Assembly (NCBI RefSeq): GCF_010550695.1
Contig: NZ_JAAGOB010000017.1
Coordinates: forward strand, 1 to 64,000
DNA length: 64,000 nt
DNA from: Phytoactinopolyspora alkaliphila
GTDB lineage: Bacteria > Actinomycetota > Actinomycetes > Jiangellales > Jiangellaceae
Direction of reading: 5' to 3'
Below the pieces are notes generated by a model that did no database searches, had not been told where the DNA came from, and worked only from the letters and a program-made list of their open reading frames with translations. Position numbers and translations under genes: made by a program. This document shows positions 54,454-57,677 of the stretch, in pieces (the stretch's first letter is position 1; every line of letters starts with the position of its first letter).

Positions 54454-57345
<2,892 letters not shown>

Positions 57346-57420
57346 CGGTCGTTTCCTCGTCTTCCGTCGTCGCCCGGCCCCATCGGCCCCATGCCTGACT
57401 GCCCGCGGTGGACATAGCAA

Positions 57421-57497
57421 AGCCCCTCACCGCAGGGAGGGGCTAGCCGCGCCGACACGGACGCCTCGACAGCGTCCGTTTCTTTCGTCAGCGCGGC
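57421..57497 (-). promoter_or_regulatory. leuS leader: nested stem and terminator-like hairpin
   Basis: In the minus transcript, 57497-57487 can pair with 57456-57446 (11 bp including one G-U) and encloses an 8-bp hairpin (57479-57472 with 57464-57457). Next comes a terminator-like hairpin, 57444-57437 with 57428-57421 (8 bp, GC-rich), followed by a short U stretch. The leader peptide stop codon lies inside the first stem, so ribosome position could decide folding. This fits attenuation by leucyl-tRNA supply. Confidence 0.5.
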
Positions 57498-57523
57498 CTG
57501 ATAAGGAGCAACAGACCTCGCAC
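57488..57523 (-). CDS. Candidate leuS leader peptide with four consecutive Leu codons
   Basis: Twelve codons from GTG to TGA encode MRGLLLLIRPR, in which Leu-4 to Leu-7 are ctg-ttg-ctc-ctt. TAACCT (57531-57536) ends 7 nt before the GTG, and TGAAAC lies 17 nt further upstream, giving a plausible promoter and a leaderless start. Stalling at the Leu run when leucyl-tRNA is scarce would alter folding of the hairpins downstream. Confidence 0.6.
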   Translation of the reverse strand: MRGLLLLIRPR

Positions 57524-57530
57524 AGTCAAC

Positions 57531-57559
57531 AGGTTAGCGCATCGGGCGATCTCGTTTCA
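57531..57559 (-). promoter_or_regulatory. Candidate leuS promoter
   Basis: On the minus strand TGAAAC (57554-57559) and TAACCT (57531-57536) are 17 bp apart, and the -10 box ends 7 bp before the leader peptide GTG. Confidence 0.45.
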
Positions 57560-57587
57560 GCTCGCTGGCGCATCCCGGCGGGTGTGA

Positions 57588-57677
57588 GAGGCCGCGCAGA
57601 ATGGGAGTCGCCGGGCTCGCGTGCCCGGGCATCCCGGCTGCGCTCAGTGTCCAGCGCCCCACTCCGCGCGCGGCCTC
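57588..57677 (-). terminator. Long hairpin directly after the VKOR gene
   Basis: gaggccgcgc (57588-57597) pairs with gcgcggcctc (57668-57677), and an inner ggagt/actcc pair (57604-57608 and 57661-57665) extends it. The loop has its own ccgggc/gcccgg hairpin. It starts immediately after the stop codon of the VKOR gene on the minus strand. Confidence 0.6.

Follow-up and report, generated by a model that had tools for sequence, protein, structure and literature searches.

Does the run of Leu codons that precedes the leucyl-tRNA synthetase gene (leuS) of Phytoactinopolyspora alkaliphila mark a functional leader, and if so, how would a ribosome on that leader decide whether leuS is transcribed? 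We addressed these questions starting from a window of 64,000 nt, the whole stretch of DNA analysed here. An earlier note on this DNA had described a 12-codon Leu-rich frame with a promoter in front of it and, behind it, an 11-bp stem holding the leader stop, an inner hairpin and a terminator-like hairpin, and had read the arrangement as Leu-responsive ribosome-mediated attenuation.

The leader and its distribution

The frame was borne out. It runs GTG CGA GGT CTG TTG CTC CTT ATC AGG CCG CGC TGA (57523-57488), with its four Leu codons in uninterrupted succession (57514-57503), and its TGA (57490-57488) lies inside the 5' arm of the stem 57498-57487/57456-57445. This stop-codon stem (GCCGCGCTGAC/GTCGGCGCGGC) has 11 bp, or 12 bp with one G-U, encloses the inner hairpin, and is followed by the terminator hairpin with zero unpaired bases between them; all three structures of the note were confirmed (Table 1). 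From the leader stop to the leuS start (57345) is 142 nt. The gene product matches TIGR00396 with 890 bits, above the cut-off of 548.4, and the genome holds one LeuRS match at E <= 1e-10. The leader (57524-57347) folds to a lower energy than all 200 dinucleotide shuffles (z -2.87).

Table 1. Features of the leuS leader region in the window
Feature	Coordinates	Strand	Remark
-10 hexamer TAACCT	57531-57536	-	Putative; 7 nt before GTG; from sequence
Leader ORF VRGLLLLIRPR*, leaderless type, GTG start	57488-57523	-	Kept in 8/8 Jiangellaceae loci
Leu codon run x4, CTG TTG CTC CTT	57503-57514	-	Sequence
Arm A, 5' side of stop-codon stem, GGCCGCGCTGAC	57487-57498	-	Helix 96.9% paired in 72 leaders
Inner hairpin, CGGACGCTGTCGAGGCGTCCG	57458-57478	-	Length and sequence vary among relatives
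Arm C, 3' side of stop-codon stem, GTCGGCGCGGCT	57445-57456	-	0 nt gap to terminator arm
Terminator 5' arm D, AGCCCCTC	57437-57444	-	Sequence/fold
Terminator 3' arm E, GAGGGGCT	57421-57428	-	Terminator helix 98.3% paired in 72 leaders
Short U-tract TTTGCT (UUUGCU)	57416-57421	-	Sequence
leuS, leucyl-tRNA synthetase, regulated gene	54454-57345	-	TIGR00396 match

Between 56500 and 58500, a search of Rfam families up to E 1 returned a sub-threshold sRNA as its sole match, and the T-box covariance model gave no match up to E 1. In five further loci (L089, L113, L170, L204, L212), Rfam at E <= 0.1 returned a tRNA match only. In L113, a tRNA gene (1347-1419) stands just before a leuS leader. No plasmid copies were found at E 1e-5. 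Between a VKOR-like gene and the leuS promoter, the window contains a 53-bp stretch (57587-57639) that has a 98% identical copy on contig C32 (282738-282790) and a second, partial copy on C9 (78560-78595, 87% identity).

We surveyed 80 leuS loci for a short upstream ORF with at least three consecutive Leu codons. Such an ORF was present in 20, of which 13 showed the leader layout: eight Jiangellaceae (L001-L006, L030, L031), Embleya (L056), Streptomyces (L059), Asanoa (L058, L076) and Actinokineospora (L073). The other seven frames (L024, L032, L033, L040, L042, L064, L075) were dropped as chance or coding. Conservation near leuS in close relatives, the check that the earlier note had proposed, came out in favour of the peptide, with the leader kept in 8/8 Jiangellaceae. 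A covariance model built from the window and the 13 layout loci, which include two Streptomycetaceae (L056, L059), matches the window leader at E 7.8e-27, the window sequence itself being part of the training set. The model also matches 7 of the remaining 67 loci at E <= 2.9e-8: Georgenia (L010, L015, L048), Occultella (L028), Antribacter (L025), Myceligenerans (L042) and an Actinomycetales MAG (L067), with two further weak matches, both antisense, in L048 and L028. The leader is therefore present in 20/80 leuS loci. Up to E 1, the model did not match any of the other 60, which include loci of Cellulomonas, Amycolatopsis and Aeromicrobium; a few of these 60 have little upstream sequence. In four Amycolatopsis and Aeromicrobium loci with no attenuator (L072, L078, L052, L060), a TANNNT-like box was seen by eye just before the likely leuS start, which suggests from the letters that leuS itself may be leaderless there.

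Across the class, 135/296 genomes match the model at E <= 0.001, with 144 matches in all, leaders of other genes included. We assigned 97 of the 144 by tblastn, using the LeuS, CimA and LeuA proteins of this genome as queries: 73 to leuS, 20 to the citramalate synthase gene cimA, three (all weak) to leuA, and one to neither (L171). By tblastn alone, 71 of the examined matches lie before leuS; L106, whose LeuS match is weak (E 9e-4), was counted as leuS and taken to encode a divergent LeuRS, and L193, where the sequence ends before the gene, was counted on the leader alone. Because L154 is truncated and resisted parsing, the leuS set comprises 72 parsed leaders, drawn from 71 genomes, 46 genera and 23 families. 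In a sample of the phylum, 11/149 genomes match, and three of these lie outside the class: one is a false match, and two are leuS leaders, with the peptides MAAALLLSPPR and MRWNLLLR, whose downstream LeuRS show about 38-41% identity. These data confirm that the leader is real, its conservation speaking against chance.

Helices, codon choice and abutment

The 72 leaders were aligned by fitting them to the covariance model, a procedure that favours the structure; in this alignment, both-side changes occur in 7/11 pairs of the stop-codon stem and in 6/8 pairs of the terminator helix, and the covariation score is 0.208, compared to a shuffled mean of 0.101 and values of at most 0.063 for slid versions. 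The inner hairpin aligns poorly (69.4% paired).

As to the promoter, the -10 element described in the earlier note held up, TAACCT lying exactly 7 nt before the GTG, and in 68/72 leuS leaders a TANNNT box ends 6-7 nt upstream of the start codon. No -35 element stood out above shuffles among the 72 leaders (mean shuffle P 0.67). Judged by the -10 spacing, transcription in this organism probably starts at the GTG or beside it.

The codons of the Leu run are unusual. CTT occurs within the run of 68/72 leaders and is the last run codon in 62, compared to 5/682 Leu codons in the leuS coding sequences of 13 loci and 0/67 in the window's own leuS. CTC and CTT together make up 150/219 run codons versus 22/682 leuS-coding Leu codons (13 loci). 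One caveat is that these counts, like those for the -10 box, are non-independent because the sequences share ancestry. Both codons are presumably decoded by one minor tRNA-Leu(GAG). CTT sits mostly 4-5 nt before the stem; in leuS, cimA and leuA leaders, the last codon of the run often has U in third position and an A after it (CTT A or ATT A).

In most leaders, arm C abuts the terminator. The gap is 0 nt in 51/72 leuS leaders and between -1 and +1 in 66/72, and its modal value is 0 in 19/23 families; the A-C loop ranges from 3 to 43 nt. We defined a strong abutting stem as one with a score of at least 20 and a gap of -1 to +1. Such a stem is present in 63/72 leuS and 20/20 cimA leaders, compared to 3.3% and 2.5% of the respective dinucleotide shuffles, and in 0/20 non-leader terminator-like sites. 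Helices within 1 nt are commoner by chance when no strength is required, occurring in 16-17% of shuffles and at 5/20 background sites. The 20-site background, which excludes leader zones and the ilvB, leuA and cimA loci, is the fairest but is small, and was picked after a 61-site set had been seen; in earlier, contaminated backgrounds, a strong abutting stem occurred at 1/6 sites and at 15/61 sites, the 61-site set still holding leaders.

Abutment extends to other branched-chain genes. Ile-run leaders with a stem abutting the terminator precede cimA in 20 examined loci (e.g. L170, L156, L152), with a gap of 0 in 18/20 and 1 in 2/20. No cimA leader of this type was found in the literature searched, most subscription papers lying outside it. 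This genome's own cimA leader, MSLNMIIM (L117, contig C7 24675-24786, minus strand), abuts by eye, its model match being non-significant (E 1.1). Its ilvB leader, VRFGILVLH (L204, contig C7), has a TAG stop within the stem, and the stem abuts a terminator with a T run. For ilvB, 27/30 class loci could be parsed with a looser parse (4/30 with a stricter one), and the gap is within 1 nt in 21/27, the others being -5, -2 (two), 5, 6 and 10. Six of these rows are weak: L211 (stem probability 0.00), L217 (0.18), and L220, L229, L230 and L237 (stem begins before the chosen ORF). A TANNNT box lies 4-9 nt upstream of only 6/27 parsed ilvB ORFs.

The window holds a second Leu-run leader, VRRFGLLLSCRGEVR (4713-4666, minus strand), before leuA (ATG 4592). 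It resembles known LEU element peptides, and inspection by eye revealed no terminator. The window's two Leu leaders thus differ from each other.

Ribosome position and a proposed antitermination mechanism

How might a stem that merely touches the terminator control it? We favour, with modest confidence, a reading in which the leuS leader is a leucine-responsive, ribosome-mediated transcription attenuator acting by the abutting A:C stem. Transcription would begin at or next to the GTG, and therefore the ribosome would load onto the 5' end without a Shine-Dalgarno site. When charged tRNA-Leu is scarce, the ribosome would stall in the Leu run and leave arm A free; A would pair with C once C is made, giving a rigid stem whose base touches the first nucleotide of the terminator. 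If the exit channel of RNA polymerase has no room for the A:C stem and the terminator hairpin at once, closure of the terminator would stop short of its base, and transcription would continue into leuS. When leucine is plentiful, the ribosome would reach the stop inside A and cover that arm, C would stay single-stranded, and the terminator would close. We infer steric exclusion from the exit channel as the cause of antitermination, this being the simplest reading that fits both direction and geometry.

The direction of control proposed here is based on feedback logic and on the ilvB1 leader of Mycobacterium tuberculosis, for which enzyme inhibition or starvation raises expression and a change of LVVI to AAAA gives low expression (PMC13236596, cited here and below from part of its text). 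The analogy is tied to the leuS leaders because two class genomes whose ilvB leaders carry the LVVI peptide (L212, L214) have a gap of 0.

For the geometry, the ribosome was assumed to cover 13 nt behind the first P-site base and 15 nt ahead of it. When it waits on the first Leu codon, arm A is fully free in 59/72 leuS leaders and touched in 13; when it has reached the stop, 75% or more of A is covered in 68/72. The computed probability of A:C pairing in the nascent transcript has a median of 0.98 in the first state versus 0.00 in the second. In this model, then, the A:C stem is the element controlled by ribosome position. A ribosome on the last Leu codon, most often the rare CTT, covers about half of A (median 0.50), so that a strong stall there would give no full A:C stem; the model leaves stalling at CTT that covers half the stem unexplained. 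In the cimA leaders, with their Ile codons, A is covered at the stop in 20/20, and at the first codon it is fully free in 6/20 and touched in 14/20. The free state is therefore less clean in cimA.

The published label for the Streptomyces leuS leaders is that of a classical attenuator (PMC1262725, likewise cited from part of its text), and the general layout would fit trp-type attenuation, in which stalling of the ribosome allows an antiterminator to form with the 5' arm of the terminator itself. Capture of this arm before the 3' arm exists is what makes a classical attenuator work. Full-length constrained folds were dropped as uninformative because the terminator nearly always wins in them; therefore, nascent transcripts were folded to just before the terminator 3' arm, with everything up to the leading edge of the ribosome masked. 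The procedure recovers the trp, leu and thr controls of Escherichia coli, in which the terminator arm is sequestered at 0.70, 0.67 and 1.00 with the ribosome at the first regulatory codon and at 0.04, 0.01 and 0.01 with the ribosome at the stop. By contrast, a rise of at least 0.3 on stalling was seen in 0/72 leuS, 0/20 cimA and 1/27 ilvB leaders. A possible pairing of C with the terminator loop was considered and rejected, as it did not outperform shuffled loops (mean P 0.505; 1/72 below 0.05). By the criterion used, the wiring of the leuS leader is a variant that fails the classical base-sharing test, and we regard trp-type control as unlikely.

An opposite shift of at least 0.3, with the terminator arm more sequestered when the ribosome is at the stop, appeared in 20/72 leuS and 4/20 cimA leaders. 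In free RNA, both hairpins coexist, and among 14 leaders the terminator 3' arm is paired upstream at 0.75 to 1.00 in every ribosome state. These folds are thermodynamic, and both results count against the reading favoured above. Together with the proposal that hairpin clusters serve as termination units (PMC8355165, from part of its text), the coexistence and the shift in 20/72 would suit tandem hairpins in which the abutting stem aids termination, a ribosome at the stop causing read-through and a stall causing termination. Such feedback is, however, wrong for a synthetase, and the M. tuberculosis ilvB1 leader was measured to respond in the opposite direction (PMC13236596); we give this arrangement no better prospects than trp-type control. 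According to the same portion of PMC8355165, structures that hinder a terminator hairpin lower termination, which favours antitermination by the abutting stem.

The U-tract of the window is short, with a longest T run of 3, and two same-genus relatives have a short tract as well, the tails being TTGCTA for L102 and L178 and TTGTTA for L104. Among the 72 leuS leaders, the longest T run is at most 3 in 24. These tails leave some room for a leader that acts mainly through mRNA stability, Rho or leuS translation, the terminator-like hairpin being minor in this organism. We consider this still less probable, given the near-complete pairing of the terminator helix, its compensated pairs and the run of at least four T in the other 48 leaders. 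That the frame and hairpins arose by chance and have no regulatory role is hardly credible: in a single genome, a short frame may acquire four Leu codons by chance, and 7/20 loci with Leu-run frames proved to hold chance or coding frames, but conservation across 23 families, covariation and codon bias speak against it, and 8/8 Jiangellaceae and 135/296 class genomes already contradict it.

Conservation, covariation, codon choice and geometry thus support Leu-responsive ribosome-mediated attenuation with leaderless translation, much as the earlier note had claimed; the base-sharing textbook layout, by contrast, was seen in 0/72 leaders.

Relation to known leaders

Leu attenuators upstream of leuS have precedents, contrary to what the earlier note implied. 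In the available parts of the two papers, classical attenuators were predicted for leuS of Streptomyces coelicolor and Streptomyces avermitilis in 2005 (PMC1262725), and LeuL2 of Streptomyces lividans (MRAVRLLLSEPR), leaderless and followed by a hairpin and a U stretch, was reported in 2021 (PMC8079986). We found the LeuL2 peptide letter for letter in six of the model-matched leuS leaders; the L113 leader behind the tRNA gene has a peptide of this type. A single covariance model matches both the window and the leaders bearing the S. lividans peptide. Judged by sequence, the window leader is a member of this previously predicted actinobacterial family: it shares with the Streptomyces leaders the gene, a Leu-run peptide, a probable leaderless start, and a hairpin followed by a terminator with a U-run. 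It differs in the residues around the Leu run and in its shorter U-tract. PMC1262725, in the part available, labels the leuS attenuator classical; the abutting-stem reading is that of the present work.

The ilvB leaders of Mycobacterium, Corynebacterium and Streptomyces are likewise similar in combining a run of branched-chain residues with a terminator (PMC13236596, PMC10272879, PMC8079986, each from part of its text), whereas the gene and the codons differ. The IlvL peptide of S. lividans (MRTRILVLGKRVG), leaderless according to the available text of PMC8079986, recurs letter for letter in the ilvB loci L230 and L233. The Corynebacterium ilvB-II motif has been described with an antiterminator that takes one side of the terminator stem, i.e. 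with base sharing, and the available part of PMC13236596 depicts the ilvB1 terminator and antiterminator as mutually exclusive structures. The LEU element of leuA, as described in the available part of PMC1262725, also has a Leu-run leader peptide, but differs in its proposed pseudoknot and in a base stem that pairs Leu codons with the Shine-Dalgarno box. LeuL1 of S. lividans is reported without a typical terminator (PMC8079986, same portion).

The leuS leaders resemble those of E. coli trp, leu and thr in having a peptide rich in the regulatory residue and, as proposed, in letting ribosome position decide termination. The E. coli antiterminator captures a terminator arm, whereas that of the leuS leaders does not by the test used here. 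The E. coli trp, leu and thr leaders are not known to be leaderless. T-box riboswitches, like the proposed leuS switch, place a synthetase under the control of the charging of its tRNA. Those of actinobacterial ileS (PMC1262725, in the part available) differ, as the leuS region has no T-box match up to E 1.

Helix chains in RNA are mentioned as an extension of attenuation in the available part of PMC4833913. In the literature searched, from which subscription papers were mostly absent, no paper announcing an abutting-stem attenuator was found, nor anything matching on end-to-end hairpins and antitermination; the wiring was thus not found in print there. Work by Lopatovskaya from 2010, which PMC4833913 cites on these helix chains, may hold a related idea.

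We tentatively suggest, at a little under an even chance, that leuS, cimA and ilvB share a widespread and distinct attenuator of the Actinomycetota, in which a stem abutting the terminator end to end would be excluded from the exit channel and sensing would go through the minor CUC/CUU tRNA-Leu isoacceptor. Textbook attenuation is a contest between two overlapping RNA hairpins for shared bases. If the suggestion is true, an abutment switch requires no sequence overlap and could evolve easily between genes, and methods that seek overlapping hairpins would miss or misdraw the branched-chain leaders of actinobacteria. Abutment also poses a simple question: how does RNA polymerase handle a helix right behind a terminator hairpin?
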